This document shows positions 30,521 to 48,914 of a stretch of 64,000 nucleotides of DNA, in pieces; position 1 is the stretch's first letter; the number at the start of each line of letters is the position of its first letter. Source of the stretch: Alkalihalophilus pseudofirmus OF4 (GTDB taxonomy: Bacteria > Bacillota > Bacilli > Bacillales > Bacillaceae_D); NCBI RefSeq assembly GCF_000005825.2, contig NC_013792.1, forward strand, positions 1 through 64,000, read 5' to 3'. The translations under genes and the position numbers were made by a program. The notes under the pieces were generated by a model, which saw nothing but the letters and a program-made list of their open reading frames with translations, was not told where the DNA came from and searched no databases.

Positions 30521-30820
30521 TCTCAAACTGAGAACTGGGATTAATACAGAAAATCTGTCATGGTAATCAGATCTATCGATATCAATTATAAGAGTGGCGG
30601 TGCAAATATTTATTTTGAAATTAGATAATCTTTAAGTATGTAATAGGTGGAGTTTTTCACCTGTTACTTTTAAAATTCGTGCTACAAGTATCTTGAGGGT
30701 AGGGGTCTTAATCTAAAAAGAAGTCATTATTTTATTGTTCGTATAATATAAATTTCATGAACAATTGGTGGTATAATTATTTTATAGTAAAAGTTAAATG
30801 TCGCCAATTGTACGTTGAAG

Positions 30821-30954
30821 CAAAGTCATATACATATGGGAACCGAAGTTATATACATAAGAGAAATTTCACTTAAATAGCATCATTATTCTCTATCTGT
30901 TGGGAATCAAAGTTATATACATACCGAAAGCGATGACGCAAACTCATATGCATT
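30821..30954 (+). repeat. Four direct repeats of CAAAGTTATATACATA upstream of the recombinase gene
   Basis: Copies at 30821-30836 (CAAAGTCATATACATA), 30844-30859 (CGAAGTTATATACATA), 30908-30923 (CAAAGTTATATACATA) and 30939-30954 (CAAACTCATATGCATT). Spacings are 23, 64 and 31 bases. They lie in the 549-base gap before the recombinase at 31070, which holds no gene. They could be protein-binding sites or decayed accessory recombination sites. Confidence 0.75.
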
Positions 30955-31069
30955 CTCGTGTGTCCTTTTTAAGAATAGTAATTGGTAAATCTTTTTTATT
31001 TATTCAATCAGCTATTTTATTTAATATTAGTGTAAAGGTCTTACTAAATAAAAAGGTTGGTTGATTACC

Positions 31070-32098
31070 ATGGCCCTTAGCTCAGAAAATAAAGATAAAA
31101 CATTAAATAGTTTTCCTTGGTTTGTAAAAGAATATTTTGATAACAGTAATCTAGTTACACAAACCAAAGAAGGTTATATTATTGATCTTCTAACATTTTT
31201 TAATTGGCTATCGAATTCAAAGCTAAATAACTGTTTAATTTCGGAAGTTTCTCTTAAAGATCTCCAAAATCTTAAGGCTCGTGATATAGTGCAATTTAAA
31301 AAATACTTAGAGACAAATATCTTCAATCCTAGAAATAATAAATCTGGTCTGAGCGATTCTGCAGTTTCACGCAAGCTATCTGCATTGAGTTCACTTTTTA
31401 ATTATCTAGCTTATAAAGCAGAGTTTGATGATGGTGAACCTTATCTGAATTACAATGCTGTCTCTCACATTAGAATAACCAAAGTTAAAAATGAAAATAT
31501 CAATAGTATTAAAAAGCTCGATGACTCACTATTTCTTACTGAAGAAGAATATAACAAATTCAGGACTTTTATAGTGAAAGATTATGAATTAATGATTAAG
31601 AACAATAGACAGTTGCTTTTATATCAGCGTAATAAAGAACGCGATATTGCCATTATATCTTTACTATTGGAAAGTGGATTACGTGTAAAGGAGCTCACTA
31701 ATCTGCAATTAGAGAATTTAGATTTAGAAAAAAATAAAATAATTACTAATGACTGCACTCGAAGCACTGTCGTCTTACCTGAACAAGCAAAGGTAGATTT
31801 AGAAAACTATCTTAAGGTTCGAAAGGTGCGTTATAATCCCAATGAAAATGTAGTTGATGTATTCATAACCAGGTATTCTCAAAGTGCGAAGTCACTTAGT
31901 GTTAGAGCAGTTCAAAATATAATCGACAAGTATGCTGAAGCTTTTGGAATGGTTGGACTTACTGCACAAAGACTAAGGTATTCTTTCGCGATTAATTTGT
32001 ATAAAAGAACAAATGATTTAAGATATGTTAATGATCAACTAGCTCAAAAATCTACAAATTTGAAATGGTTCTATAATAGTTTCGAGGACAATTTATAA
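31070..32098 (+). CDS. XerS-like tyrosine recombinase with degraded active site
   Basis: The 342-residue protein (ATG 31070) resembles its convergent neighbour over the whole length: FPWFVKEYFDNSNL versus LPWYVGEFIDHRRR, and LLESGLRVKELTNL versus LGSGLRLSEVVNL. In the catalytic box the Arg of ESGLRVKEL, the second Arg and the final Tyr remain. The HxxR His is Gln (AQRLRYSF), and the LGH His is also Gln (LAQKST). Loss of both histidines suggests weak or no catalysis. It may bind DNA without cutting and act as a regulator or partner. Convergent stop codons are five bases apart. Confidence 0.82.
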   Translation: MALSSENKDKTLNSFPWFVKEYFDNSNLVTQTKEGYIIDLLTFFNWLSNSKLNNCLISEVSLKDLQNLKARDIVQFKKYLETNIFNPRNNKSGLSDSAVSRKLSALSSLFNYLAYKAEFDDGEPYLNYNAVSHIRITKVKNENINSIKKLDDSLFLTEEEYNKFRTFIVKDYELMIKNNRQLLLYQRNKERDIAIISLLLESGLRVKELTNLQLENLDLEKNKIITNDCTRSTVVLPEQAKVDLENYLKVRKVRYNPNENVVDVFITRYSQSAKSLSVRAVQNIIDKYAEAFGMVGLTAQRLRYSFAINLYKRTNDLRYVNDQLAQKSTNLKWFYNSFEDNL

Positions 32099-32103
32099 CA
32101 TAA

Positions 32104-33192
32104 TTAAATTTCAGTCTTAGGTATATCCATATTATCAACAGCATTTTTCAAATCATCATTCTTAATGTGTGTATATATCATAGTTGTTTGAATAGAAGAA
32201 TGACCAAGTTGCCTTCTTAGTTTAGGTACATCATTTATTTCCCTATGGTATCTTGTTGCAAAAGAATGTCGCAGTTTATGAACTGAAAGAGAAGGTTTAC
32301 CATATGCAAGTGCATACTTTTCAACCATTTTTTCAATGGCTCTGGCACTTAACCTTCGAGATGTTCCCTTAGGTCCCATTGGAGCAGATACAAAAAGCGC
32401 TTTTACACCTTTCTCGACTTTATACCGTTCGGTTCTTACTGTTAGGTATTCCTGTAAATCGTCCATCGCTAATTTACTAAAATAAACGAATTGCTCTTTG
32501 TTCCCTTTGCGAATTGCGCGTGCTGTAAATTTGTTAAAATCGATGTCAGCCAAATCTAGGTTTACAACTTCGGATAGTCTAAGGCCTGAACCTAGAATTA
32601 ATGATATGATGGCTGTATCTCGTTCCTTATTTAAAATATGAAAGTTAAATATTTTTTTGTTGTTTTTATTTATTTGACCGTAATCGTGGGAGATGAACTG
32701 CCTAAAGGCTTCATATTCATCTCCCATGAGTATTTTCCCTTCCATTTTATTTGCAGTAGTTTCTATACTGTCTTTCATTACATTAAAATCTATTTTGGTC
32801 ATAACATTCCTGCTAATATATGGATTTAAATCAGGCGTTTCAGCTATATTTTGTAGATAATTGAATAATGATTTTAAGGCGGAAAGTTTACGGTTGACTG
32901 TAATTTCTTTGTTTTCCAATACATATTCTAAGAAACCTAGAAAACTTTCCATTTGTTGTACAGTTAATTTCTCCATTATTTCTAATGGGACCTCTTTGAT
33001 ATTACCTTGATAAATAGATTCAGATATAATCCAATTAAAGAAGATTTTAAAATCATGACAGTAATTCATCAGAGAACTCGAAGAAAGTTTTCTTCTCCTG
33101 TGATCAATGAACTCTCCTACGTACCATGGCAAATCCTTAAGTAACTGCTGCATTTTTATATAATGATTTTGTTGCTGTGAATTTATTGCCAT
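32104..33192 (-). CDS. XerS-like tyrosine recombinase
   Basis: This 362-residue protein has the full tyrosine recombinase set: Arg in LGSGLRLSEVVNL, Lys in IRKGNKEQ, VHKLRHSFATR, RRQLGHSSIQTT and the nucleophile in MIYTHI. The N-terminal DNA-binding domain (LPWYVGEFIDHRRRKLSSSS) is of the XerS type used by streptococci and some plasmids to resolve dimers with a single recombinase. A GAGGTG site precedes the ATG. A perfect 16-6-16 inverted repeat lies 50 bases before its start codon, suggesting that it carries its own recombination site and may autoregulate. Confidence 0.92.
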   Translation of the reverse strand: MAINSQQQNHYIKMQQLLKDLPWYVGEFIDHRRRKLSSSSLMNYCHDFKIFFNWIISESIYQGNIKEVPLEIMEKLTVQQMESFLGFLEYVLENKEITVNRKLSALKSLFNYLQNIAETPDLNPYISRNVMTKIDFNVMKDSIETTANKMEGKILMGDEYEAFRQFISHDYGQINKNNKKIFNFHILNKERDTAIISLILGSGLRLSEVVNLDLADIDFNKFTARAIRKGNKEQFVYFSKLAMDDLQEYLTVRTERYKVEKGVKALFVSAPMGPKGTSRRLSARAIEKMVEKYALAYGKPSLSVHKLRHSFATRYHREINDVPKLRRQLGHSSIQTTMIYTHIKNDDLKNAVDNMDIPKTEI

Positions 33193-33241
33193 ATAATCAC
33201 CTCATTTTAAGTAATTCTATAAATAAGTCTTAAATCCTTTA

Positions 33242-33279
33242 AATTTATTACGTAAAAACAACATTTTACGTAATAAATT
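33242..33279. other. Candidate recombination core site (16-bp inverted arms, 6-bp spacer)
   Basis: Arms AATTTATTACGTAAAA (33242-33257) and TTTTACGTAATAAATT (33264-33279) are perfect inverted copies around ACAACA. Two arms of about 11-16 bases with a 6-8 base centre is the design of tyrosine recombinase core sites. It sits in the leader of the intact XerS-like gene. Nothing shows it to be a terminator, as no T tract follows on either strand. Confidence 0.75.
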
Positions 33280-33457
33280 GAAGGTGATACTACATATAGA
33301 ATTTAGATTTGTTGTTATATGTTCAAAGCCAAAAAGTACGTACAGTAAAGACATGAATTTATGTACCAAAATCTTTAATTGTAATTACCAATCAAAACGG
33401 TTCCTTCTCCCTCCATAAACTGTTCTACTAGTACAAAATTTTATGTCTTAGAATTAC

Positions 33458-33509
33458 AATGTACATACGTTATTTGTTTTAATTTAGAGACAAAAAACGT
33501 ATGTACATT
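33458..33509. repeat. 13-bp inverted repeat AATGTACATACGT
   Basis: AATGTACATACGT (33458-33470) is repeated inverted as ACGTATGTACATT (33497-33509), 26 bases apart. TACGTAC and TTTATGTACC motifs nearby (33339, 33360) are similar. The stretch 33193-33892 carries no gene apart from these sites. Possibly a regulator-binding or accessory site. Confidence 0.6.
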
Positions 33510-33892
33510 TTTCGTTAGCATTTGATACTTGATATCTTGTACAGATTTTTATATCCTTTTACATTTATATTCATTCAGACTTTAAGCTTTTTCAATGTTT
33601 ATTTTTATGTTTGTATATAAGCTTTTGTATCTCAGAGTAATGCGATCATTCTCCATTTATGGTAGAAACACGCACCACTGTCCTGCTCATTTAATTTAAG
33701 TGTAACATTTCACAATCTAAAAGCCTATGAGATATCCTCAAAGGATGGTCATTATTCTACCATTGCACTAGTAAACCACTAGAAGTATTTTATAAGCGCT
33801 AGAACTTTTTTTAAAACATTACGTCTTTATTTCATATCTACAAAATGACTGAGTTGAAAATAGGTGTTTGCACCTGTTTGGACCTGTTTAAT

Positions 33893-34981
33893 TTAACTGC
33901 AAATAGGCTTTGCAAAAATCAATCGCCCTGTACTTGTTTGTAATGCCTTCGAAACAACAACAATTACATTCTGCCCTATATGTTCTTGGCCATCATCAAC
34001 TACGATCATTGTCCCATCATTAAGATAGGCAATACCTTGATGATATTCTTTTCCATGCTTTATAATTTGTACCTTAAGTTTTTCACCGGGTAGGACAATA
34101 GGTTTCATTGCATTTGCCAAATCATTAATGTTCAGAACCTTAATACCTTGGAGTTCGCATACTTTATTTAAATTAAAATCATTTGTAATGACGACACCTG
34201 GTAAAACTTTTGCTAACTTTACTAGCTTACTATCCACCTCTTGTATATCTGGAAATTTGCCTTCATAGATTTCAATTTCAACATTAGCATGTAAATTGTT
34301 TCGTATTTTATTAAGAATATCTAAACCGCGCTGACCACGAATTCGTTTTAATTTATCAGACGAGTCTGCAATATGTTGTAGTTCTCCTAACACAAAATCT
34401 GGAATAACTAATGTCCCTTCTATAAAACCCGCCTCACAAATATCTGCAATTCTACCGTCAATAATCACGCTCGTATCGAGAATTTTCATTTCTATTCTGT
34501 TTTTCTTATGTGCTCCTTCTTCCGCTTTCTTCTTGTCTTTACTGAAGTGTCTTGTTAAAGAAAATAAATTATTTAACTCATGACGTTTCTTAAATCCAAT
34601 CTGATAACCTAAGTAGCCAATAAAAATCGTTACAAAAATTGGTGAAATTGTACTTACAACAGGAATTTGAATGGCACTAATAGGAATTCCAATTAAATAC
34701 GCAACGATAAGTCCGAGAATCAATCCCATCGTACCAAATATCACATCCGTTACTGGTGCTTTAATTATGGATTCCTCCATTAGCTTCATTAAATTGACAA
34801 TATAATGAGTCAGCCCAAATGTCGTATAATAGAAAATAATTACTCCAAAAGCTGTACCTACATAAGGATTTATCAACCATAAAGGTATTTCTCTTAAAAC
34901 ATTACTAATTTCTGGAATGAATAAATAACCTAACGTTCCTCCAATAAATATAAATAATAAATGCACAAGACGGTTTAACAC
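33893..34981 (-). CDS. yacL: YacL-like membrane PIN/TRAM-domain protein
   Basis: The 362-residue protein has four membrane segments (about 5-25, 35-60, 77-97, 105-128), a PIN nuclease domain (about 163-280) and a C-terminal TRAM domain (about 295-355). The PIN acidic residues are seen in ILDTSVIIDGR, LGELQHIAD, VDSKLVKLA and VITNDFNL. This is the layout of B. subtilis YacL. In most bacilli yacL sits in the disA-ispD cluster; here it is alone, next to a cysteine synthase, so it is likely a second, acquired copy. Its physiological RNA target is not known. Confidence 0.92.
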   Translation of the reverse strand: MLNRLVHLLFIFIGGTLGYLFIPEISNVLREIPLWLINPYVGTAFGVIIFYYTTFGLTHYIVNLMKLMEESIIKAPVTDVIFGTMGLILGLIVAYLIGIPISAIQIPVVSTISPIFVTIFIGYLGYQIGFKKRHELNNLFSLTRHFSKDKKKAEEGAHKKNRIEMKILDTSVIIDGRIADICEAGFIEGTLVIPDFVLGELQHIADSSDKLKRIRGQRGLDILNKIRNNLHANVEIEIYEGKFPDIQEVDSKLVKLAKVLPGVVITNDFNLNKVCELQGIKVLNINDLANAMKPIVLPGEKLKVQIIKHGKEYHQGIAYLNDGTMIVVDDGQEHIGQNVIVVVSKALQTSTGRLIFAKPICS

Positions 34982-35600
34982 TATTTACCTCCTGCTTTTT
35001 CTTTTTGAGGAGTTTTCAACTTTCAACTTTCAACTGTTAGCTGATTTCTGGACTCCACTATCTATTGAACTACTTATAATGACAATTAGGGCACACAATA
35101 ATTTGTCGAGTTGATTTGCTAAATAGAGAAATAAAGGAGTTCTAACATTTCCGGCGAACTTTTATATATTAATTTACCATTTTTATTTGACTTCAGGAAA
35201 TTTAGGAAAATCCTATCATTCCTATCACTAGTTCAGAGATTAAACAAATAAAAAGGTCGGTATTTTGCATTTCAGATTATTATTACTGCTTTGTACGAAT
35301 TGGTCTTTATCTTAATTGTAGACAATAAATTTGAAGAAAACGTGAATTTAAATTTATTAGGGAATACTTATTTTCTTTTTAATATAGTGTTTCTGTTAAA
35401 TTGCTGATTTCATTAACTCATCTTTTAAAATCCTTTTTATTATTTTCTTGTGGTTAAATCGTGTTCTTCATTTTTAGCAATAATACTCATTGTTTCTTAT
35501 AAAAACCATTATGATAAATAACACGATATGAATTATAAAAAAGACAACCCTAGTCCTTTTTGGAACCAGAGTCGACTTGAACGTATATATTCGTAATGAA
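34982..35600. other. Intergenic stretch without recognised features
   Basis: The 619 bases between the yacL-like and cysK genes are AT-rich, with a tandem CAACTTT repeat (about 35016-35033). No convincing gene, hairpin or regulatory site was found. Confidence 0.5.
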
Positions 35601-36545
35601 TTACTCTTTTTCCTGAAATAATGCAGTAGATAAATATCTTTCTCCCGTATCAGGTAAAATAACAACCATAGTTTTGCCCTTGTTTTCAGGGCGTTTACCT
35701 AGTACAGAAGCTGCATGAAGAGCTGCACCGGAGGAAATTCCAACTAAGATACCTTCTTCCCTCGCAAGCTTACGCGCAGCTTCAAAAGCCTCCTCATTAC
35801 TAATCTGAATAACTTCATCATAGCTATCAACATTTAACACCTTTGGAACAAAACCAGCACCTATTCCTTGTATTTTATGAGGCCCCGGATTTCCTCCAGA
35901 TAAGACAGGAGATGCAAGTGGTTCAACGGCTACAGAAAGGAAAGATGATTTTCGTTTTTTTAGTACTTCTGAGACACCAGTGATCGTCCCACCGGTACCA
36001 ATCCCGCTAATTAGGATATCAACCTCTCCTTCAGTATCAGCCCAAATTTCTTCGGCCGTGGTTTTTCTATGGATTTCTGGATTAGCGGGATTATCAAACT
36101 GTTGTGGCATATACGCATTTGGTGTACTTTCAACTAGTTCGTTAGCTTTTTCAATTGCACCTTTCATTCCTTTTGCTCCCTCTGTTAAAACTAACTCTGC
36201 CCCTAGGGCTTTAAGAATATTACGACGTTCAATACTCATCGTTTCAGGCATAACGAGGGTACACTGATAACCTTTGGCTGCACATACATATGCTAGTGCA
36301 ATTCCCGTATTCCCACTGGTTGGCTCAATTATGACTGTCTCTTTATTAATGAAACCTTGTTCTTCGGCAACACTTATCATCGCAAATCCGATCCGGTCCT
36401 TGACACTAGACAATGGATTAAAGTACTCCAGCTTTGCTAAAACTTCAGTACATGTGCTGTCACTAATTTCGTTGAGTCTAACTAAGGGTGTTCTACCGAT
36501 TAACTCTGTGATGTTTTTAGCTATCTTCGGACGATTTAAATCCAC
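35601..36545 (-). CDS. cysK: Cysteine synthase (O-acetylserine thiol-lyase)
   Basis: The 314-residue PLP enzyme has the lysine in [15 protein letters not shown] (about 45), the [14 protein letters not shown] loop that binds substrate, [10 protein letters not shown] that cradles the phosphate, and a C-terminal [10 protein letters not shown]. It is full length for CysK. It makes cysteine from O-acetylserine and sulfide. A GGAG site precedes the ATG. It stands alone; a link to metal stress through thiol supply is possible but only suggested by context. Confidence 0.95.
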
Positions 36546-36768
36546 TATGAAACTCCTCCTTAGAATTAATATTTTAATTGTTCATATTTATCATAGGATT
36601 AAAATGTGTTGAAACTATGAAAGATATAAAAAATAATAAACTCTTTATGAAGAAACAAAACTTAATCAAACACCTTCAATTGTATCTGTGTTATCCCTAC
36701 TAATCCGGAAACTTTCTTCGGTTAGTTTATGTCTAAATAAGGTACTCTAAATAAGCTGACATTTACTG

Positions 36769-37281
36769 TTAATAGTTTTTACGTAATTTACTTTGCCTAC
36801 TTTTCCCATATCGCGTCATTCCTTGTGGCTTATATACTGACAAGATAATAGTTAAAAACAACACCACTAATCCACCCCCAGCATGAAGAAGTTGGCCCCA
36901 CAGACCATCAAAGTTAAAAGCACCAGTCTGATGGGTGATATTCGCTAGATAACTAACTGTCGGCATATTTAAAAGCAAAACAACAGTTGCAACTATGGTA
37001 AGAAGAAGTTTAAAGAGAATCCAATAATGCCTAAATAAGCCCCAGGCGGTCCCGAGTGACATGACAAGCCCAGTTAGAAAAGAAACGAGTGCTAATGGGA
37101 CAATGACATACCATCCAATAATCTCCATAGCACTCCACGCAACTCGCCCCGTTTGAACATCTTGCGTTGTCAATGCAGCTATTACGAGAGCTATGTATCC
37201 AAATACCGCTCCCAACCAGCCAACTGTAGATGTAATATGTATCGTGAGTGTTAATTTGCGAAACCATGGTACCATAATCAT
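36769..37281 (-). CDS. Membrane protein, DUF2269-like
   Basis: The 170-residue protein has four hydrophobic segments (about 12-38, 50-72, 85-108, 130-152). It begins KLTLTIHITSTVGWLGAVFG and contains SFLTGLVMSLGTAWGLFRHYWILFK. Such proteins are often near metal or redox genes in Bacillus. A GGAGGT site overlaps the end of the gene before it, and the ATG overlaps its stop, so the two are coupled. Function unknown. Confidence 0.75.
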   Translation of the reverse strand: MIMVPWFRKLTLTIHITSTVGWLGAVFGYIALVIAALTTQDVQTGRVAWSAMEIIGWYVIVPLALVSFLTGLVMSLGTAWGLFRHYWILFKLLLTIVATVVLLLNMPTVSYLANITHQTGAFNFDGLWGQLLHAGGGLVVLFLTIILSVYKPQGMTRYGKSRQSKLRKNY

Positions 37282-37475
37282 TAATAACTACCTCCGGACG
37301 CTAAATGGCGACCTGGTCCATGATCGCCTGTGAAGATCATTATGATAACTAGTACAGCTATGAGGATCACAATGATTCCTATTACCTTAACCCAGGTTGG
37401 TGTTCTATGGTTAGAATCAGAGCCGGAATTTTCCATATCCTTATCAATTTTAGTGTCTGATGAAAACTTTTTCAT
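37281..37475 (-). CDS. Small single-pass membrane protein
   Basis: The 64-residue protein has a charged N-terminus, one transmembrane segment (about 31-50, VIGIIVILIAVLVIIMIF) and a short GDHGPGRHL tail that could touch metal. GGAGG precedes the ATG. Its stop overlaps the start of the DUF2269-like gene, which shows coupled translation. Nothing is seen in the 456 bases upstream, to 37931. Confidence 0.7.
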   Translation of the reverse strand: MKKFSSDTKIDKDMENSGSDSNHRTPTWVKVIGIIVILIAVLVIIMIFTGDHGPGRHLASGGSY

Positions 37476-37931
37476 TTAGGTAACCTCCAAATTATAAACT
37501 ACAGTTAAGTATAACAATTTTTTATGAACATTCGATGAATAGATTTTCTCTTTTTAGCTATCAAAGAACAGATGGTTTATCGAATTTTTCTCTTTCATAT
37601 GTTATATCCTTTTTCCAATTCCACTAACAAAACACTTAATAATTTTTCATCAAGGAGACACAAACGTGTCGTTCTACAAACTTTCTACAAAATTTATTTA
37701 TAATATGTGGTTAGAATATAAAATCTAGAGGCGAAATCAAGGAAACTTAGATTTTTGTGATGACTACCTTAGGGAGAGTAATAGCTAAAAAGATATAAAG
37801 CAAACAAGAACGAATACTAGCTAATATCCGCATCTTGATATTTAAGGTCCTTACAAAAATTGCGTTTTCAAAATATGTGTATAGCTGATTTGTCAGACTT
37901 TTATAGCCTCAAAAAGTATAGGAGATGTATT

Positions 37932-39206
37932 ATGATATATGGAATAGAAAGCAGAAGGTTAATTTTTATTCGACATCTAGGCGTAGCGGTAATTTCCGCT
38001 ATATTGGTTTATTTGTTTTATCTATCTTATTCAGCATGGGGGGTTGTTCCTGCTTTATTCCCAGATTGGGGAGCTGATCATCCATTTTGGAGGGCATGGG
38101 CACATGCTGCATTTGTTCTTCTTTTCCTTACCCTGATCATTTCACCAGCTGCCACACTATGGCCCCCTATTAAACGATTGTATTCTTGGAGGCGTGAATT
38201 GGGTATATGGTTTGCTGTGTTATCTTTCGGACATGGTTACGCTATATGGGACCGTTGGGCACGCTGGGATGTGGCAAGATTATTTGGATTTGAATATATG
38301 GAAGACGTAGGTGGATATATTCTCTTTAGACCAGAAGTTGGCATAATGAACATGATGGGACTTATAATAGCTCCTATGATCATCTTACTTGTCGTTACTT
38401 CTTTTGACGGGGCAGTAAAGTTACTCGGAGCATCTGCATGGAAGTGGCTTCACACCACATTAGTACATGTTATTTTCTATATTGTTATGATTCGCGGTGT
38501 ATTGTATCTTTTTTATTTCTTTCAATATTCACCTCCTAACTGGCGGGCGTATCCTCCAATTTGGTTCTTATATGTTTTTCTTGGGATGGCTATTTTTGTC
38601 GTTTTACTTCAGGCGTGCGCCTTTACTAAGACTGTACTCCATCGGAGAGGACGCAAACAAAAGAATGGTATTATCCAGATAGCTGCAGTAATTAGTATAG
38701 CCATAATGTTTGCAATGCCTTTAGTGCTAATGACGGGAACGGTTGCGTATTTTGACAATCGAACGATAAAAGAACCACCCGAGTTTACCCAGGCCGCAGA
38801 AGATTATGCACAAAATTTTGAAATGGTTATCCATGAAGAAAACCAGAATATTTACATTTGGGCAAAAAACCTTGACAGTGCACCATACTTTCGCCAAATG
38901 ACCGAAATATCAGGGGAGAAGGTTCTGAACCAGATATACCGTTACGACGATCAGACTTTATATATGGAAGAACTAGATGCTGACATGGAGCTTGTTTGGT
39001 CTAAAATAGAGAATGTGAGACCAGAAGATATTGGAATTTTAGAAGTTGCCATAGAAACAGGGGGATGGGCAGAACAGTACGGAGCAGGAGAACACAAAAT
39101 TCCATTTTCTAGTGGAGAATTACAAGTCTCCATTCATAATGTAGGAGAAATCATTCCCGATGCGGTGTTTGAAATTCCCGATGATATTGAATTTAGTTCA
39201 CCTTAA
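37932..39206 (+). CDS. Ferric reductase-like transmembrane protein
   Basis: From ATG 37932 (AGGAGATG upstream) the protein has 424 residues. Seven or so membrane segments carry His residues suited to haem (AHAAFVLLFL, GHGYAIWDRW, LHTTLVHVIFY), as in the ferric reductase-like/MsrQ family. After TM7 (about 245-265) comes an extracytoplasmic domain of about 155 residues ending DAVFEIPDDIEF. The tail has no cytochrome signature. It may move electrons across the membrane to a metal or a periplasmic-side substrate, which is inferred from the haem-type core. Confidence 0.8.
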   Translation: MIYGIESRRLIFIRHLGVAVISAILVYLFYLSYSAWGVVPALFPDWGADHPFWRAWAHAAFVLLFLTLIISPAATLWPPIKRLYSWRRELGIWFAVLSFGHGYAIWDRWARWDVARLFGFEYMEDVGGYILFRPEVGIMNMMGLIIAPMIILLVVTSFDGAVKLLGASAWKWLHTTLVHVIFYIVMIRGVLYLFYFFQYSPPNWRAYPPIWFLYVFLGMAIFVVLLQACAFTKTVLHRRGRKQKNGIIQIAAVISIAIMFAMPLVLMTGTVAYFDNRTIKEPPEFTQAAEDYAQNFEMVIHEENQNIYIWAKNLDSAPYFRQMTEISGEKVLNQIYRYDDQTLYMEELDADMELVWSKIENVRPEDIGILEVAIETGGWAEQYGAGEHKIPFSSGELQVSIHNVGEIIPDAVFEIPDDIEFSSP

Positions 39207-39262
39207 TGAGGTATCCGTAAGTTAATTCTGAAATTATACATTGTAGTGTGGCTATATATGAA

Positions 39263-39313
39263 GAGCTTGTTTTTACAATCACATTGAATTTGTAGAGACA
39301 AGCTCATTTTTTT
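39263..39313 (+). terminator. Terminator after the reductase-like gene
   Basis: GAGCTTGT pairs with ACAAGCTC and is followed by ATTTTTTTC. The loop is long (27 bases). Confidence 0.6.
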
Positions 39314-39438
39314 CATAAAACATGGAATATAGGAATCGATTATAAATCCTTATTCATTACCAACAAATTACTTTCCCACAAAAAAACATTATAATTATAT
39401 TTCAACGTGTAACACGCTAACTAATTTAATAAAATTAT

Positions 39439-40811
39439 GGCTCTATACCAAAACATGTTCTTGACTAAGAGCCATACTGAATCCATTCTTCATTGCATTC
39501 TAATAAAATATGTTGTTTATAACACTCTTGGTTACGCGTGAAATAGTGACGACGTTGAAGTGCCTTGATTTTATTGTTTTTCCCTTCAACGGCCGCATTC
39601 GTAAAGCGTAATTGATGGTAATTACAGATTTCCTCTTGCCAATGAAGCATTGTTTTTAAACAGGATTCTACAATCGGATGCTCAATTGCTTTCCCTTGTG
39701 CCAACCATCTTTTGTAGCTTTTCTGGGCAATGACATAGGATGGACTACAGTCATACCAAGCAATAAAGGCTTCTTTCCATTCATACACTTGGCGAAGTAA
39801 TTTTGCATAACCTAACAGTCGTTTTAAGATATCCATTTCGTCTTGTGTGAGCTGGTCATGGCGCTTCCCTAATATACGGAAGTGTTTGCTTTACATCCGC
39901 TTTCGCAAAGGGGGAGAGGCTTTTTTGAACCAACTTTCGCGTATTTTGTAGAGCGTCCGTTACATAACGATTGACGTGAAAACGATCGGCAATTCGAATG
40001 GCATTTGGGTACATTTCTTTTACGAATGTATGATAGCCTTGCGCTAAATCCATGACGACAGCGACGGGATTAAGCGTCTGCCAAATCGGCTGCGCTTGAT
40101 AATAATCCTGTAATTCTGCAATCGTACGACCTGGGATGACATCTAAAAACGTGCCACCACGTAAATCGTGTAAGCCAGTGTTATAGCGATGTCCTTTACG
40201 AATCGCAAAGTCATCGATACCCAGTACAAGACCCGTACTCACTTTAGCCTGTTGTTCGCATCGTCTTTGAACGCGAACCGACTCCACTGCCATCCATTGA
40301 CGTACAACACGGTGAACCGTTGTTGGTGGTGTTTCAGAGAGGCGCACCGCATGGGCAATCGTCGCTCCTATCGCTTGTTTCGGTAACGTGGCTTCAAATG
40401 CCTTTGTATAGCGCTTTTTTGGCGCAACACAGTCGTAATGCCACACAAAATGGGCATGACAATCTTTGCATGTTAAACGGATTGCGGGTAGAAGTAAATA
40501 CACTCGCTTCCCAAACGCAGCGAGGTGACGTACTTTTCGTTGATATGCCGTGCCACGACGAATCGTTTGCGTTGATGCACAAACTGGACAAGGCTGTGTG
40601 GCATCAATCGGTGTCACTTCAATGAGCACTTGATCTTTTTCTTTTTGAATAGCACATACATTTAACTCTGGTAAATCGAGTAAAACCTTGATAGAATGGG
40701 AATGCATCTGTATACCTCGTTCTGTTGTTTGGTCGTACTTTCAACATTAACGGATACAGATGTTTTTTTGTATGCTTTTTTTAATGCAAGAACAGATTTT
40801 GGCGTTGAACC
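39439..40811 (-). mobile_element. ISL3-family insertion sequence with 8-bp target duplication
   Basis: The ends GGCTCTATACCAAAACATGT and, inverted, GGTTCAACGCCAAAATCTGT are imperfect 25-base terminal repeats ending GTTCTTG. Both ends are flanked by AAAATTAT (39431-39438 and 40812-40819), so the element of 1373 bp is bounded exactly. It contains one frameshifted transposase. Confidence 0.93.
39465..40707 (-). pseudogene. ISL3 transposase, frameshifted
   Basis: The N-terminal part (39856-40707) has the zinc finger CPVC...CKDCHAHF and the DDE residues in LGIDDFAIRKGH and VVMDLAQGYH. The C-terminal part (39465-39836) holds FTNAAVEGKNNKIKALQRR with the catalytic Glu. The frames part near 39870: the N-terminal frame runs YIREAP then stops, while GKRHDQLTQDE continues in another frame. 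Two bases are missing. The transposase should be inactive. Confidence 0.93.
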
Positions 40812-40870
40812 AAAATTATTTTTAAACTTTTGCTAGTCTCTAATTTACATAAGATTGAAATCCGAACTTT

Positions 40871-40905
40871 AAGAGGAGAGGTTGACATAGGAACCTCTCC
40901 TCCTT
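40871..40905 (-). terminator. Terminator of the copA-lipoprotein operon
   Basis: GAGGAGAGGTT and AACCTCTCCTC form an 11-bp stem, directly after the lipoprotein stop on the minus strand. Confidence 0.8.
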
Positions 40906-40908
40906 TTA

Positions 40909-42240
40909 TTAATGTCCTCCGTGGTCATCTCCACCTAATGAGACAATTTCCAGTTTTTCATCTAATATACCTTGAGTTGTAAATGGAATATCAGTAAATG
41001 TACCAATTATAAAGCCGTGGTTATATGGTCCTTCTGTTGGTTCTTCCTGAAATGCGGGTTTAACTTTGGCAAGATACTGATAAAGTTCATCTGTGATTTC
41101 ACCTTCATCTAACCAAATCATTGGAGCATGCTTCCCTAAATGAGCAAAAGGAGCAGCCGCAATGGCAAGTTCAGGTGTATTAGTTGATGAAAACACAAAA
41201 CCGTGCCCAGGACTAGTAATTCCCCAACCAAATCCTGTTTCAGCATCTTTATATGAGGCGAATTCAATGGATTGAGCTACTGGATTATCCCCTTCAATTC
41301 GGTGAACCGTTCCATACGTTTCTAACTCTTGAGCAATCTCATCAGATATAATATCTTCTGGTCCTACAAGATAGATCGTTACCCCATTCTCTCTTGCATT
41401 AAGAGCATCAATTGTTTCTTGAGGAATACCATCATTGTCTACATAAAGTAAAGATTCGTTCATGTGAGCAATCCAATTCCCAACAGAAATTGTATATTCT
41501 TTTGCGTCTTCCTCTGAAGAACCAATGATTACATTTGGATGAACTTCGTTAATGGTTTCTGTGAATTTTGCTTCAATGTTTCTAGCGAAATCAGCAGCAT
41601 TTTCACCTTGTACTTGTTCAACATTATAAGCGTTTAATTTATTAAATTCCGCTTCTGGAAGATCGCCAACCACAAGCACTTGAATATGTTCACTATTACC
41701 TTTTGGTTGTAGTCGATTAAGTTCATTTAAGACATCATCAGAAATTTCTCCGTCCCAATACAGCAATGGACCATCATTAGGATGGTGAACCAACGTTAGG
41801 GCGGCTAAGGAATATTGCCATTGATTTAAAGGAGCCAATATAACTGTCCCAGGTTGATTCTCCTCATGGGTTGCTGGCCAAACAGTTTGTGATACGTGAA
41901 TGGATAATTGGATAGGGTCGTTCTCGTTTATTCGAGTAATATTCTTAGTATTTACGACCTTTAATTCATCAGTTGCTAAATCATTTAGGTTTTCTGGAGC
42001 TTTTGCAGCTTCCTGTTCTAAATTAGATCTATCAACATCAACTGAATCGTTATGATGCCCTCCATGATCCATCTCTTCGTCCATACGATCCATTTCTTCG
42101 CCGTGATCGATATCCTGATCGTTTCCATGCCCTGCATGTTCTTCTTCGGCTTGGGTACAAGCGGCAAGAAGCATACTTAACAGTAAGAAGGTTACAATTA
42201 ACATCAACTTAGTAGCTTTTGCTTTTTTCAATTTATTCAT
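40909..42240 (-). CDS. His-rich lipoprotein with cell-wall-binding-repeat-2-like domains
   Basis: The 443-residue lipoprotein has a lipobox (LLAAC, Cys about 28) and a His/Asp/Met-rich N-terminus (HAGHGNDQDIDHGEEMDRMDEEMDHGGHH). Two to three CWB2-like repeats follow (motifs VLVVGDLPEAEFNKL, TIYLVGPEDIISDEIAQEL, PMIWLDEGEITDEL). It ends DDHGGH. The His-rich ends should bind Cu or similar metals outside the membrane. It follows copA after 58 bases, probably in the same operon, so it may take up or hold the copper that CopA exports. This use of CWB2-type repeats is unusual; function is inferred. Confidence 0.75.
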   Translation of the reverse strand: MNKLKKAKATKLMLIVTFLLLSMLLAACTQAEEEHAGHGNDQDIDHGEEMDRMDEEMDHGGHHNDSVDVDRSNLEQEAAKAPENLNDLATDELKVVNTKNITRINENDPIQLSIHVSQTVWPATHEENQPGTVILAPLNQWQYSLAALTLVHHPNDGPLLYWDGEISDDVLNELNRLQPKGNSEHIQVLVVGDLPEAEFNKLNAYNVEQVQGENAADFARNIEAKFTETINEVHPNVIIGSSEEDAKEYTISVGNWIAHMNESLLYVDNDGIPQETIDALNARENGVTIYLVGPEDIISDEIAQELETYGTVHRIEGDNPVAQSIEFASYKDAETGFGWGITSPGHGFVFSSTNTPELAIAAAPFAHLGKHAPMIWLDEGEITDELYQYLAKVKPAFQEEPTEGPYNHGFIIGTFTDIPFTTQGILDEKLEIVSLGGDDHGGH

Positions 42241-42298
42241 TCCTTTCTACTCATTAGCTTCTTTTATATCTCCTGCTTTTATCTTATCCTAATCAACT

Positions 42299-44761
42299 CT
42301 ACTCAATCGTTGATTTGAATTTTTTAAGTCTCAAAGTGTTTAACACAACTGAAACAGAACTAAATGCCATTGCTGCTCCGGCTAACATAGGATTTAGTAA
42401 AATTCCAAATAGAGGATATAGTAAACCGGCTGCAACTGGAATCAAGACAATGTTATACCCAAACGCCCACCCAAGGTTCTGCCAAATCATCTTCATCGTT
42501 GATTTAGATAGTCTAAGGGCCGTTACAACGCTTTTAATATCACCACGCATCAATGTGATATCAGCGGTTTCCATCGCAACATCAGTCCCCGTTCCAATCG
42601 CAATCCCTACATCGGCTTGTGCGAGTGCAGGAGCATCATTTATACCATCACCGACCATAGCCACCATTTTTCCTTCTCCTTGTAGTTTTTTTACTTCTTC
42701 TGCCTTATGTTCTGGTAACACCTCAGCAATATAGTTATCGATTCCGGCTTCCATTGCAATCGCTTTGGCCGTTCGTTTATGATCGCCTGTTAACATAATC
42801 ACTTCAATGCCCATCGATTTTAAAGCTTTGATAGCTGGGATGGTTCCTTTTTTCAATGTATCAGCTACTGCTATGATCCCTGCAAATTCCCCGTCAATCC
42901 CAACATACATGGGTGTTTTCCCTTGATCAGCTAATGCAATTGCTTTTTCTTCGTATAACCCCAAATCAATATTGTATTTACTCATCAGTTTGATGTTACC
43001 AATTAAGACTTCTTTGTTATTTAATGAGGCAAGTAATCCGTGACCAACAATCGCTTCGAAAGATTCAGGGTCATTTATAGGAAGGTCTTTTTCTTTTGCA
43101 GCTTCCACAATTGCTTCACCTAATGGATGCTCTGATGCAGTTTCAACTGATGCAGCCACTTGCAATAGTTCCTGTTCACTTACTATTTCAGTTGTAATGA
43201 TATCTGTTAGTTTTGGCTTGCCTTCCGTTATGGTACCGGTCTTATCTAAAACAACGGTCTTAATTTTATGGGCACGTTCTAAACTTGTAGCATTTTTAAT
43301 TAGGATGCCATTTTCAGCTCCTTTTTCTGTACCAACCATGATTGCCGTTGGTGTTGCCAAACCTAACGCGCAAGGACAAGCAATAATAAGAATCGCAATA
43401 AAGGTAGTTAATGCGAAAATTAGACTTGGGTCCGGACCGACAAAATACCAAACAATAAATGAGACCACCGCTATTAGTAAGACTGCCGGTACAAAGTAAG
43501 CAGAAATTAAATCAACGACACGTTGAATGGGAGCTTTCGAACCTTGAGCTTCATTAACCATTCGAATAATTTGTGCGAGTGCCGTCTCTTTCCCTACTTT
43601 TGTTGCACGAAAACGGAAACTTCCAGATTTGTTAATAGTCGCACCGATAACCTCATCTCCAGCTGCTTTTTCTACTGGGATAGACTCACCGGTTAACATG
43701 GATTCATCTATCGTAGATCTACCTTTCGTGACGACTCCATCGACAGGAATACGTTCGCCTGGTCTTACAATGATCTCATCATCAATCTTTACTTCATCAA
43801 CAGAAATTTCGAGTTCATTTCCATCTCTAATCACTCTGGCTGTTTTTGCTTGCAAACTCATTAATTTCTTAATTGCAGTAGAGGTTTGCCCTTTTGCTTT
43901 CGCTTCAAAGTAACGTCCTAAGAGGATAAGCGTCGTAATAACGGTTGTGACATCGTAATAAAGTTGGTACGGGAAACCCATTGCCGTAAGCTGATCTGGA
44001 AATAACGTCATCGCACCACTATAAAGCCACGCAGCTGACGTACCCATTGCTACTAATACATTCATATCTGCTGAACCATTTCTTAATACCTTATAGCTAT
44101 TTTTGTAAAATCTCCAACCAGGTACGAGTTGGATGTAACTTGTTAACACAAGTAAGAATAAAGGATTAGACAAAAATGTCGGTACCCATGCTCCCCATCC
44201 ATGCATCATGTGAGGGATGCTACCAACTAACACAACGGTTGTTAAGACGGCTGCTAATGTAAAATCTTTTAAAAGCTTTCTCGTTTCTACCTCTTGCTCA
44301 TCAGATTCTTCTCTCTGTTCATTTTCATTGATAATTGATGCTTCATATCCTATCTTTTCAATTCGTTTTATAACAGCTTCGGGATCTAATATTCCTTTTT
44401 CTCCTTCAACCTGAGCTTGATTAGCAGCCAGGTTCACATTAACAGATTGCACACCTTCTACTTTTGCAATAGCCTTTTCCACACGGGTAACACATGATGA
44501 ACATGTCATTCCCTTTACAGAAAATAGAACCTTTCTTCGATCATCGTTATCAATGGGCTTAGCATCATATCCAGCCTTCTCAATAGCCTTTATAATTGCC
44601 TCAGACATTTCTATTGTTTCATCCGCTTCAACTTGAGCTTGATTGGCTGCCAGGTTTACATTAACAGATCGAACACCCTCTACTTTTGAGATCATCTTTT
44701 CAACGCGATTGACACAAGAGGCACATGTCATTCCTTTTACCGAAAATATCATCTTACTCAC
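42299..44761 (-). CDS. copA: CopA, copper-exporting P1B-1 ATPase
   Basis: The 820-residue ATPase has two N-terminal metal-binding domains (GMTCASC and GMTCSSC), eight membrane segments, the [12 protein letters not shown] motif of TM6, DKTGTITEG phosphorylation, [11 protein letters not shown] hinge, and the GYN (TM7) and MAFSS (TM8) residues specific to Cu(I) pumps. It sends Cu(I) out of the cytoplasm. The ATG has an AGGGGAATC site. It lies 213 bases downstream of copZ and is followed by the lipoprotein gene. Confidence 0.97.
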
Positions 44762-44974
44762 CTGATTCCCCTCCTTTACAATTCGAATAATACTGTTATT
44801 GTGATCATATTTCCCCTATAGATTACCAAGAGAATGTAAAGAAAATATGTGAGATACATCACAGATTCTTCTTTGTTTCTATAAGTATCTTCATTTAGAT
44901 AAAGCTAATGAAAATAGTGAAGAAGGTCGTACTAAAATCGTGCGACCTCACTTATATGATCCCATGCAACTACT

Positions 44975-45181
44975 TCATTCTACATCATATCCTTGTTCTT
45001 CAATCTCATGAATAATTTGATCTAATGAAATAACATCAGAATCATAATTAAGGTTTACTTTCCCTTCAGACAGCATAACTTTTACTGAGTTGACACCATT
45101 TAACTTTCCTATATTGTTTTCTATTGTACTTATGCAATGCCCACATGACATTCCGTTCACTTTTAATGTTTTTTGTTCCAT
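44975..45181 (-). CDS. copZ: CopZ, copper chaperone
   Basis: The 68-residue HMA protein has the copper-binding GMSCGHC loop and a ferredoxin-like fold (TLKVNG... VNSVKVMLSEGKVNLNYD). GGGAGG lies eight bases before ATG 45181; a longer frame upstream has no support. It carries Cu(I) to CopA. A weak hairpin at 44923-44949 separates copZ from copA, so copA may be transcribed partly by read-through. Confidence 0.95.
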   Translation of the reverse strand: MEQKTLKVNGMSCGHCISTIENNIGKLNGVNSVKVMLSEGKVNLNYDSDVISLDQIIHEIEEQGYDVE

Positions 45182-45233
45182 TATTTTAGCCTCCCAAAAT
45201 GTTATGATATGATATTTTCTTTTCAAACTAAAT

Positions 45234-45262
45234 TTACCATACCCCCCTACGGTAATCAAGTT
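45234..45262 (-). promoter_or_regulatory. CsoR-type operator within the copZ promoter
   Basis: On the minus strand TTACC-GTAGGGGGGTAT-GGTAA has inverted ends and the G-tract of CsoR sites such as that of B. subtilis copZA. It lies between TTGATT and TAAATT, which are 17 bases apart and fit as -35 and -10. No csoR gene is present in the window, so the regulator must be elsewhere. Confidence 0.72.
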
Positions 45263-45481
45263 AATTGCTTCGTTGAAATTACTCCCCAAGCACTTCCATG
45301 CAGGGGAGTATTCGTTATGCAGAATTCTTTGATGTATAAAATACTTTACCCAAATTTTAAAAATGTATTCTTTAGTGGCTTTTTAATTGGAGGGATATAA
45401 GTTGCTAATCACACCAAGCATGAAAAACCTATGAATCTGATAAACGAAAGACATTTCGAATTTAATAATTGTATAAAAGCA

Positions 45482-45523
45482 AAAACCGAAAGTTCATTTG
45501 AAATTCAAATGAACTTTCGGTTT
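45482..45523. terminator. Strong bidirectional hairpin terminator
   Basis: A 20-bp perfect inverted repeat beginning AAACCGAAAGTTCATTTGAA, with A and T tracts on its flanks, lies downstream of the membrane gene at 45584. Confidence 0.88.
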
Positions 45524-45583
45524 TCTTGTACAAAGTACATATTTCATAGTGTCGGAGATAGGGGTTAAATACTGTTAGGATCT

Positions 45584-45928
45584 TCATTCACTCCAAAACG
45601 TAAAAAAAGCATGAATGACAATATTTATTAATGCTACGATTGCTACAACTACCCAATACTCCTCATTAACACCGTACGCAATAAGGATAGTTAACAATAT
45701 GCTTAGGCTAGCGTATACAAACTTATTTCTTTTCCTTTTAATCGACTTGGGAGAGTCTTTTTCAAGCTCATCTCTAAAGGCATCTAAAATAGAATCAACT
45801 TTCTTGTCAATATGGCCCTCTTTAATAAGAAATTGAACCATAGCGTCCTGGTCAACATTTTCAGCGGACAATTCTTGTTTAGTTTCTGAAATGACATGCC
45901 TTCTGACTATTTCCCTTAAATTACTCAT
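45584..45928 (-). CDS. Two-TM membrane protein coupled to the dCTP-deaminase-like gene
   Basis: The 114-residue protein is helical and soluble in its first 65 residues (LREIVRRHVISETKQELSAEN...), then has two closely spaced membrane segments (about 70-88 and 91-110). Its ATG overlaps the stop of the upstream gene by four bases, implying joint production. It is not recognised. Such a small two-TM partner beside a nucleotide-binding protein recalls the effector of an abortive-infection pair, though that is speculation. Confidence 0.7.
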   Translation of the reverse strand: MSNLREIVRRHVISETKQELSAENVDQDAMVQFLIKEGHIDKKVDSILDAFRDELEKDSPKSIKRKRNKFVYASLSILLTILIAYGVNEEYWVVVAIVALINIVIHAFFTFWSE

Positions 45929-46620
45929 TTATCCTTTTTGCCTTTCTTAAACTCTTTTCTCGCAATATCAGCTAACTCTTTTGCAGCTAACTTAATATGA
46001 GACATTAAGTGTTTACCTAAGTCACTGGCCATTTCTTCAGAAACTTTCTTAACTCCTTTTTCTTTAAGAAAATCTTGGATTTCATCATCTAAATGTAATT
46101 TAGAAATACTAACCTCTGTAGCGTCCATGTATCTTGCATCCTGCTTTTCATAAGGTTTTAGCGGTTCTGTTTTCAACTCGAATAACGCCAATTGACAAAT
46201 TTTAATACCAGGAATAAGTCTAAAACGAACGGGTGTATTGTTTACTGCAATTAGACTAATTTGTCCGCGATATCCGGGATTCATATAGTGAGCAGGACTA
46301 ATCATTAGACCCAGAGACTTTACTCCATACCGCTCATATATGCGAGCAGTCATATTATGGGGAACCTTTAAGAATTCATGTGTCTGAATCAAAACAGATT
46401 CTTTTGGTTCAAGCCAGAACTCATCTACAGAAATATCAAACTTTTCATAGTGATCCTCAGTTACTTCCTTACCTAGTATAATGGGCTCATTGGAAGAATA
46501 ACGTTTAACAACTGTATCCAACGTTAAGTTGATAGTCGCTCCTTCACAATACTCCGGATTATATGGTGTTATCAACTCTTCCTCTATTGCTAGGGTGTGC
46601 AAATCACGATCACTTAACAT
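45925..46620 (-). CDS. dCTP deaminase/dUTPase-fold protein with altered active site
   Basis: The 231-residue protein has the dCTP deaminase-like trimer fold: MLSDRDLHTLAIEEELITPYNP at the start, ARIYERYGVKSLGLMISPAHYMNPGYRGQ in the core and IPGIKICQLALFEL. In Dcd enzymes the catalytic Glu lies in the strand after PG-x-x-G (E. coli IVLEFYN). Here that strand is ISLIAVNN, so the Glu is absent. The serine and arginine of the RSSxxR motif also differ. The C-terminal 60 residues form a basic helix (KLAAKELADIARKEFKKGKK). It may bind nucleotides without deaminating them. Confidence 0.75.
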   Translation of the reverse strand: MLSDRDLHTLAIEEELITPYNPEYCEGATINLTLDTVVKRYSSNEPIILGKEVTEDHYEKFDISVDEFWLEPKESVLIQTHEFLKVPHNMTARIYERYGVKSLGLMISPAHYMNPGYRGQISLIAVNNTPVRFRLIPGIKICQLALFELKTEPLKPYEKQDARYMDATEVSISKLHLDDEIQDFLKEKGVKKVSEEMASDLGKHLMSHIKLAAKELADIARKEFKKGKKDK

Positions 46621-46921
46621 TCCTTCCTCCCCCTTTCCATTTTCATTTTGTTACCTTAATATTGCCATAAAAAATGAATTTTACAAGGGGGAACATGTGA
46701 ACTAATGTATAACCTTGAAATCTCCTCGCGTAATATCCATTTTTTCATTCTGCCATCAGTAGCATTGCATAAATAAATTCTACTAATGTCAAATCACTGT
46801 TTTTTGGTCGCTTAGATAAGTCTGAACATTCAGATTTTATGTTATTCAGGTCAAAGTGAAAAAAGGGCAACAGGTAAGTAAATGGTAGTCCTTATCCACA
46901 ATTTTACATTTATTATTTTTC

Positions 46922-48173
46922 CTAGTTAAACAGTGGATCGTACGTCAAGTCGTCTAGATGGCTCACCTCACCTTCTGCGAATTGGTGCTCGATTACTCGA
47001 AACTCTTGTTTCCAATTCTGTTTTCGGCGTCCTGTTGAAAAGCGTGTTGGTTGCCTAAAAAGCGAACGAAGAAAGGTGTCAAAGCCTTTAAACAACAGAT
47101 TCTGTAGGGTTTTCTTTATCTCGAGTAAAGGACCATTGTGCTGCAGCTGCTCTTGTAAAAGCACTTGTAAACAGTACGTGATGAGCGCGACCCAGATTTG
47201 ATTGCACACCGCATTCTCACTCTTTCCATAGAACGTTTTGAACGTGAGGTGCTGTTTCATCCATTTGAAAAAGGTCTCGATCTTCCAACGATAACGATAT
47301 AAGTCACCGATTTCTTCGGCAGATAAGTCAAAACAGTTCGTGACGATCATGACGACGTTTCCTTGACTATCTTGTGTCTCGATTAAGCGCAAGGGATGTG
47401 TCATTTTTGTCCCATTTTGCGAGTTACCTAGAAACACTTCTTGGTCTTTCACAATAGGTGAACCTGCTTGTGGAATTTGTTCGGATAGCACTTCGACCTG
47501 TGCGTTCTTCTTCAAACGAGTGATAAAGCGAACATCGTGTAAACAGAGATGATCAAATTGTTTATAGTCGATATAACCACGATCAAACAAGTGGATCGCA
47601 TCCGAATCCATTTCAATGAGATCTCCCATTTGAGTGCGGTCTGCATGCTTAGCTGGTAAAAGAATTCCTTTATCGGGTAAGGTCAACTCTTTGGTAACCA
47701 CGACTCGTAAATGAAGGCGAATCCCAGCTTTCGTTTTACGAAAAGTCGCCCAAGGGTACTGACTTACACTCATGCTCATCGTTGTTGAATCGATCACGTG
47801 TAAGCGACCAATCTCACGAATGATCGGCGATTGCTTCATCTTTGCTTGAATGTTCAACACGAGATAATGAAAGATCTTCTCAAATAACGTTGGGGATAAA
47901 TCACCCAATTTCCTTGAAAGCTGTGACGTGCTAATCGTATCAAATGCGAGTTGAACTTGAAGCTCTTCCTTATCTTTTAGCTTCTTTGACATTTGAGTTA
48001 AGCTTTTGGTTTCTTTCAATTGCGAAATGATCAGCAGTTGAAGAAACTTATAGGCTGTCAGCTTTTTCACGTATTTATCAAGGTCAATCACGTTAATTAG
48101 ATTGGAAAAAAGTATGTTCATCAATGACTTTTAGTAGTTCATTTATTGTAGATTTTATGGTATTCTTGTCCAT
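46922..48173 (-). pseudogene. IS4-family transposase, N-terminally frameshifted
   Basis: The main frame (46922-48124) encodes a 400-residue IS4 transposase with DDE residues in VIDSTTMSM and FDRGY, and the YRYRWKIETFFKWMKQ (Y-R-E) signature. The true start is ATG 48173, behind AGGAG, reading MDKNTIKSTINELLKVIDEH. That frame runs out at a T6 run near 48115. Removing one T joins it to SNLINVIDLDKYVKK. So the gene is broken by one base or was misread. IS ends were not resolved. Confidence 0.88.
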
Positions 48174-48462
48174 GTGAAGGCTCCTTTTAATTTGGATTTG
48201 GACAGAACTACCAAACCTAATTATAAGGAGTTTTTTTATGTCTTGAAACCATAAATTTCTACTCGAAACTACTTGACAAATTTTTAATAACTTTATGCAA
48301 AGCTAATGTTCTGCCATTAGTTTATTTGACAAAAAAGTGACCACATTTTTAACGAAAAGTGAACACTACGTTAAATGTAATCAAAATCTCTTTTAGTGAG
48401 GGGAGATAACATTTAACATATAACTATATAAAAAAGTTTTTAAAAATGTAGGGGGCAAGAAG

Positions 48463-48852: not shown

Positions 48853-48867
48853 CAATAAGAATGAAAC

Positions 48868-48914
48868 AAGACACCTAGTTACGATTCAAACAATCGTAAC
48901 TAGGTGTCTTTGTT
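48868..48914 (+). terminator. Strong terminator after the b5-like gene
   Basis: AGACACCTAGTTACGATT and its exact complement form an 18-bp stem with a 5-base loop, ending in TTTGTTT. Confidence 0.9.

Follow-up and report, generated by a model that had tools for sequence, protein, structure and literature searches.

The DNA analysed here, referred to as the window, comprises 64 kb from the start of a contig of 285,222 b, one of three contigs of its genome (G000), and it contains two convergent, adjacent genes for related tyrosine recombinases of the XerS type, one of which has lost catalytic residues. The locus thereby raises the question of what a dead XerS is doing beside an active one, and whether the two make up a self-contained recombination module with a core site of its own, as a preliminary description had it. 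The features of the pair are the following:

31070..32098, plus strand: P0001, inactivated XerS paralogue (ATG at 31070, open frame from TTG 31061)
32104..33192, minus strand: P0002, intact XerS (409.1 bits against NCBIfam model NF003462)
33242..33279, no strand assigned: perfect 16-6-16 inverted repeat of 38 bp in the leader of P0002
33247-33274, no strand assigned: 28-bp Xer-type core (11-6-11) within the 16-6-16 repeat

Both proteins pass the cut-off of the NCBIfam XerS model (267 bits), P0001 with a score of 268.6 bits. P0001 is 342 aa long and aligns with XerS from the N-terminus, leaving no TnsF-type N-terminal zinc-finger region, and its identity to eight XerS rows including P0002 is 30-35%. 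In an 18-row alignment the catalytic set of P0002 is complete (R, K, H, R, H, Y), and the same positions of P0001 hold R, N, Q, R, Q, Y. That is, the Lys has become Asn, the His residues of the HxLR and LGH motifs have both become Gln, and the two Arg and the Tyr are kept. Moreover, P0001 ends soon after the Tyr, so that the C-terminal tail is missing. If the two dead XerS proteins (P0001 and one from a relative, described below) are set aside, 15 of the remaining 16 rows retain all six residues, the sole exception being a Carnobacterium XerS with Q for the second His. The preliminary description had correctly recognized the convergent related pair, the complete catalytic set of the one enzyme and both His-to-Gln changes in the other, but it had missed the K-to-N change and the lost tail. 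An AlphaFold2 model of P0001 built from a 4-row alignment was poor (mean pLDDT 62.3).

Among 84,980 species genomes, matches to P0001 were found at six loci. Three of these, in Halalkalibacter wakoensis, H. okhensis and H. hemicellulosilyticus (G004, G005 and G006, respectively), are 100% identical over 345 aa, and the other three show 24-27% identity. At the DNA level 2 of 1029 bases of P0001 differ in each of the three other copies, with identical protein, and 10 of 1089 bases of P0002 differ in the two copies that cover it. Judging from these sequences, P0001 is not decaying fast. The preliminary description had raised the possibility that the paralogue is a simple pseudogene in all relatives; this was rejected because the gene is intact in 4/4 copies.

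The inverted repeat in the leader of the active gene was likewise described correctly, and it stands out from its surroundings: none of 200 shuffles of the P0002 leader reached the 11-6-11 score of the core, and the window holds nine perfect repeats with 16-bp arms (the core repeat included) versus none in 20 block shuffles. When the site was looked up in other genomes, as had been proposed, the 28-bp core was found to be exact in two of them. It resembles the XerS/difSL system, for which the consulted part of PMC5357621 describes a 31-bp difSL with an 11-bp centre beside the gene, in that a single recombinase of about 356-362 aa has its site next to its gene. It differs in that the site of P0002 is a symmetrical 28-bp 11-6-11 arrangement, not in the 31-bp difSL format, and in that it is carried on a transposon (see below). 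Leader symmetry was also scored for other plasmid xerS genes: it stands out in Peribacillus (0/200 shuffles as good) and does not in Halobacillus (200/200) or Virgibacillus (198/200), so that not every xerS leader has a visible site. Two further features lie close by, a 20-bp inverted repeat (TGTACATACG...) at window 33458-33509 and a 54-b stretch at window 33575-33628 that is 77% like the transposon right end and is perhaps a remnant of an older internal end.

The larger context of the pair is given by comparison with the three Halalkalibacter genomes. DNA identity of 99.5-99.8% with them begins sharply at window 30805-30809; the shared sequence opens with TGTACGTTGAAGCAAAGTCATATACATA, and the left flanks differ in all four genomes. 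Further into the body, identity with the sister copies is mostly 95-99.9%, in parts 86-94%, and is broken by insertions. The corresponding features are:

30736..30763, no strand assigned: TGTTCGTATAA TATAAA TTTCATGAACA, a resident site of the Xer type (11-6-11) in the flanking DNA beyond the transposon
30804..30808, no strand assigned: probable left half of a 5-bp target duplication, CCAAT, the right half of which is lost in the window's copy
30809..30954, plus strand: transposon left end, with terminus TGTACGTTGAAGC and boxes AAAGTYATATACATA at 30822, 30845 and 30909 and a weaker one at 30940
30809..64000, plus strand: transposon body within the window, pieces of which also occur in H. okhensis, H. 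hemicellulosilyticus and H. wakoensis

The sister copies show how this element is bounded on both sides. The right end in H. hemicellulosilyticus, ...TTATGTATATAACTTTGG...GATTCAACGTACA, mirrors the left end, and the same right end occurs in H. okhensis and H. wakoensis, with flanks equal to the left flanks. The target duplications are 5 bp long, CCGGC in H. hemicellulosilyticus, TTAGC in H. okhensis and TCATT in H. wakoensis. Boxes AAAGTYATATACATA are present at the right end too, in both orientations, and are putative TnsB-type binding sites; with three mismatches allowed, the box pattern occurs 11 times in the whole window against a mean of 9.9, which is not above chance. In H. okhensis the element continues into ORFs of 510, 538, 329 and 567 aa. 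The 567-aa ORF matches TnsB in the PDB (E 8e-5), and a profile of the 510- and 538-aa ORFs with their relatives matches TniQ (E 6.6e-5). The 329-aa ORF has an AAA domain and is assigned to TnsC by domain and position, its profile matching only Orc1/Cdc6 in the PDB. A TnsA-like ORF comes next in H. hemicellulosilyticus, and its profile matches PDB TnsA (E 5e-5). The sister copies thus carry TnsA, TnsB, TnsC-like and two TniQ-like genes, and two stops were seen in the TnsB frames on contig C55 of G004 and C55 of G006 within the alignment to the H. okhensis protein. Inverted ends, 5-bp duplications and tns genes together therefore identify a Tn7-like transposon, and window position 30809 is almost certainly the exact left terminus of such an element, more than 75 kb in size.

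The window's own copy has lost the right end and the tns genes. It reaches contig position 106752, where an IS-like repeat replaces the remainder, a second copy of this repeat lying near 147 kb of the contig, and neither a right end nor a TnsB match was found in G000. A scan of viral contigs for the transposon terminus found none. A multicopper oxidase and a heavy-metal P-type ATPase are among the cargo, as are HMA and CopC/CopD proteins. The copies in H. okhensis and H. wakoensis lack an ISL3-type insertion sequence with split transposase ORFs that is located at window 39431-40812; the aligned pieces share 8 b at this point, which is what an 8-bp target duplication would leave. Two ORFs for reverse transcriptases of the group-II-intron type are also found inside the element (window 50210-52876).

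It follows that of the module claimed in the preliminary description, the active XerS-like enzyme, the dead paralogue and the core site all stand, but the module is not self-contained, since it makes up the left-end portion of a Tn7-like transposon. The end of the transposon forms one limit of the pair, and for this reason the idea of a plain XerS module for dimer resolution was rejected. More broadly, that the pair is an independent XerS/site module of the plasmid for dimer resolution, together with a regulator, and is merely cargo of the transposon, is now highly improbable. xerS genes are indeed common on Bacillota plasmids: tblastn with P0001 gave 589 plasmid records, and the annotated ones among the 60 matches listed are all named xerS (a plasmid search by DNA similarity returned short matches only). 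However, the resident plasmid already has its own xerS at C2:110089, and a related transposon, in G390, also has an XerS just inside its left end. The preliminary description could not name the architecture, and for a Tn7-like element with an inactivated tyrosine recombinase there is a precedent in the literature, TnsF, which the sections consulted of PMC10293859 describe as the target selector of Tn6022, with a predicted contact to TniQ.

The positions at which the transposon has inserted point to a preferred target. Neither the terminus at 30809 nor the Xer-type site at 30736-30763 had been noted in the preliminary description, and the two are 44 b apart when measured from the edge of a 30-b version of the site. 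By symmetry alone this resident site is not significant (144/200 shuffles as good). The reverse complement of its left arm, TGTTCGTATAA, matches exactly the 11-bp arm that precedes xerS on contigs C2 and C3 and on a plasmid of the same species (G002). The xerS of the resident plasmid occupies C2:110089-111168, and on the G002 plasmid a homologous flank lies ~600 b before xerS. On C2, the Xer half-site in front of the resident xerS directly follows an ORF at 109180-110030, which may be a Xer-borne module; in its place the G002 plasmid has a different sequence of ~560 b.

The transposon of H. okhensis, like that of H. wakoensis, is flanked on the left by a resident xerS, whose product is 73-75% identical to P0002, and TTACGTCAAATTTATATTTTACGTAA in the leader of this gene is 62 b (H. 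okhensis) or 47 b (H. wakoensis) from the terminus. The H. hemicellulosilyticus insertion is near the end of a response-regulator reading frame, with no Xer-type site nearby. Counting all seven insertions with a readable left flank, including three in more distant relatives introduced below, the left end is 44-62 b from a Xer-type site in four (G000, G004, G005 and G101), and no such site is near the other three (G006, G390 and G064). The motif TTACGTMAAA-N6-TTTKACGTAA, with at most three mismatches, occurs in eight places in about 0.89 Mb scanned, namely in the element's own core (three genomes), at the resident sites of G004 and G005, at the G101 site and in the xerS leaders of G390 and G199; with four mismatches, three further places appear, all elsewhere (G004 C182, G105 and G126). 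The sites of the G000 plasmid have another type of arm and fall outside this motif. It seems very unlikely that the G004, G005 and G101 ends would have come to lie within 65 b of such rare sites by chance. Very probably, then, the transposon lands beside Xer-type sites, a behaviour that may be called Xer hunting, and the window's own site is the weakest case of it. Integration by Xer strand exchange in dif, as in an IMEX, was rejected: the ends are 44-62 b outside intact sites, and there are 5-bp duplications. A search of the open-access literature found no Xer-site targeting by a Tn7-like element and no XerS-type selector.

A search with TnsB gave matches in 15 of 397 genomes of the order, ten of them at 45-52% identity. 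The relatives with long enough stretches have TnsA, TnsB, TnsC and TniQ in a row (the G299 stretch ends within TnsC, and G340 was left out of the gene layout). Strong XerS matches are present in three of the ten genomes, G101, G390 and G199, with two in G199. One of the latter, directly behind TniQ2, is dead (H to Q, H to N and Y to L, with the K kept), and the only active XerS found in G199 sits on another contig. In G390, which belongs to the same genus, an entire element could be delimited (39.5 kb, with the duplication CGGGA); it carries an active XerS just inside the left end, with TTACGTAAAATATGAATTTGATGTAA in the XerS leader, and behind TniQ2 only a 24-residue remnant of a dead XerS. 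As we read the flanks, the G390 and G199 insertions are both behind the same flavin-reductase-like gene, and because of this shared location the two elements are taken to use another target. G101 has a 9.3-kb element with the duplication CATTT and a cadmium-type ATPase. No tyrosine recombinase ORF was found inside it, and its TniQ-side end is 48 b from ACTTCGTCAAA-ATTATA-TTTTACGTAGT, an active resident xerS being 1.9 kb away. The G064 element has the duplication GTCCA, with no Xer-type site found in 70 kb. Trusted ends were sought in G105, G126, G199 (left end), G236 and G278, and none was obtained. In G126 there are two TniQ genes and an intact TnsA, and a dead XerS was not found; the idea that two TniQ genes go with a dead XerS was accordingly rejected.

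Outside this set, no XerS was found in the examined stretches of the relatives in pNY3A and P. rhizovicinus. In pNY3A (CP079755.1) the TnsB relative is 48% identical, with a SAVED/ThiF gene cluster alongside; this plasmid is labelled Klebsiella grimontii, but it carries genes that, judged by their annotations, are typical of Bacillota, and the label may be wrong. Of 15 beta-proteobacterial relatives, six have a recombinase within ~2 kb of the tnsA side (one of the six as an unannotated remnant visible only by tblastn), eight have none and one is unannotated. These recombinases were not counted as targets because they may be the transposons' own resolvases.

A role for the active enzyme is suggested by the state of TnsA. 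Its nuclease motif (E, D, ExK), the position of which was set by alignment with the relatives, comprises what we take to be the catalytic nuclease residues, as in Tn7 TnsA. The motif is kept in 8/8 other Bacillota-type rows (seven genomes and pNY3A). The TnsA of the window's element, as read from the G006 copy, has KIL in place of ExK, and the TnsA proteins of G199 and G390 have lost both the D and ExK; ExK is also lost in 9/9 aligned beta-proteobacterial rows. According to the surveys in the consulted portion of PMC8649781, loss of tnsA accompanies gain of a resolvase. Since TnsA is degenerate in both lineages, P0002 acting with the 28-bp core is probably a cointegrate resolvase, and the XerS inside the G390 element would also fit this role.

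In the best tree P0001 and the dead XerS of G199 are apart, both on very long branches (2.5 changes per site), but a single clade is not rejected (p-AU 0.13), and to judge from these sequences the two may or may not share an origin. We tentatively regard the dead XerS as a putative TnsF-like target selector, a reading to which we give slightly less than even weight. It is favoured by the location of the G199 protein directly after TniQ2, and a protein derived from XerS could well bind Xer-type sites. Against it, G101 hunts without any tyrosine recombinase inside the element, which means that a dead XerS is not strictly needed for Xer hunting; G390, the sister of G199, keeps just its short remnant; and P0001 is at the opposite transposon end from tnsABC-tniQ and lacks the zinc-finger region of TnsF.

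Some of the same observations bear on a different role, in resolution, with the dead XerS serving as an inactive partner, repressor or directional factor for P0002 at the core, and TniQ alone finding the target by sensing XerS-occupied sites, as Tn5053 does with resolvase-occupied res. P0001 adjoins and converges with P0002 and the core, G101 hunts with one TniQ and no recombinase, and dead XerS proteins occur where TnsA is degenerate, i.e. where resolution would be needed. Even so, a role in resolution seems rather unlikely, given that in G199 the dead protein is next to TniQ2 and not on the contig of the only active XerS found, and that the core is a perfect palindrome, at which a second protein is not needed. 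Quite improbable, too, is the reading in which the dead XerS has no function today and simply persists, as a relic or neutral passenger, from a copy that was once active. Such an origin would agree with the loss of most of the dead XerS of the G199 lineage from its sister G390 and with the long branches of both dead proteins. However, P0001 has diverged by ~65-70% from the aligned XerS rows and still has a full open frame without stops, its protein is identical in three other copies, and dead XerS proteins are present in two related transposon lineages.

Under the selector reading, the following mechanism can be proposed. A degenerate TnsA would be unable to cut the second strand, so that transposition would proceed via a cointegrate, which P0002 acting at 33247-33274 would resolve. 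In the least certain step, proposed by analogy with TnsF of Tn6022, P0001 would bind Xer-type sites without cutting and hand them to one of the two TniQ proteins. The Xer loci of plasmids would thereby be marked for insertion, and the other TniQ would serve other (chromosomal) sites. XerS may thus have been turned into two tools, a cointegrate resolvase after the decay of TnsA and a dead marker by which Xer sites on other replicons become insertion targets, although we advance this double use only tentatively. The reading as a whole, in which the pair belongs to the left end of a Tn7-like transposon and this transposon hunts Xer sites by the proposed mechanism, we consider evenly balanced. The window's target site is weak by symmetry, three of the seven insertions have no site nearby, the examined stretches of the pNY3A and P. 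rhizovicinus relatives gave no XerS, and G126 combines two TniQ genes and an intact TnsA with no dead XerS found, all of which count against it.

Compared with known systems, the element shares with Tn7 the placing of TnsA, TnsB, TnsC-like and TniQ-like genes at one end, the presence of repeated boxes in the left and right ends alike, TGT...ACA termini and a 5-bp target duplication. Unlike Tn7, it has a degenerate TnsA nuclease motif, an active XerS with its site and a dead XerS at the other end, and Xer-type sites as targets, to which its left end is nearest. P0001 is like TnsF of Tn6022 in being a catalytically inactivated tyrosine recombinase within a TniQ-bearing Tn7-like transposon, but it is of the XerS type, keeps R, R and Tyr, has no N-terminal zinc-finger region and is not associated with a comM target. 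The Tn5053 family offers a third comparison; in the consulted part of PMC11406308, Tn5053 is described as targeting plasmid resolution sites, and its res hunting and the two-pathway lifestyles of Tn7 are summarised. Like members of that family, the element inserts close to a site-specific resolution site and has its own resolution system; it differs in its sites, which are of the Xer type, in its use of a tyrosine recombinase and in having retained a TnsA-like gene.

The kind of element is thus known, and what is new here is a Tn7-like transposon that combines an XerS resolution module with a dead XerS and tends to land beside Xer-type sites. The way in which Tn7-like transposons locate plasmids is a question both open and of technical value, to which this element would add a new class of target, the Xer sites of plasmids, and a candidate selector descended from the enzyme to which the target itself belongs. 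If the reading is true, there would be a target selector built on XerS and separate from TnsF, and res hunting would have a counterpart that uses a tyrosine recombinase. A relative that still hunts Xer-type sites without a dead XerS (G101) provides a natural comparison. The link between TnsA decay and the gain of XerS resolution would extend the rule of tnsA loss and resolvase gain, as stated in the part of PMC8649781 consulted.

Elsewhere in the window, outside the transposon, the stretches 14319-17520 and 18074-22880 hold another group of genes. Two adjacent tyrosine recombinase genes (frames of 388 and 701-731 aa) are followed by methyltransferase, ArsR-type, heavy-metal ATPase and pyridine-nucleotide oxidoreductase genes, and the whole is possibly another mobile element.
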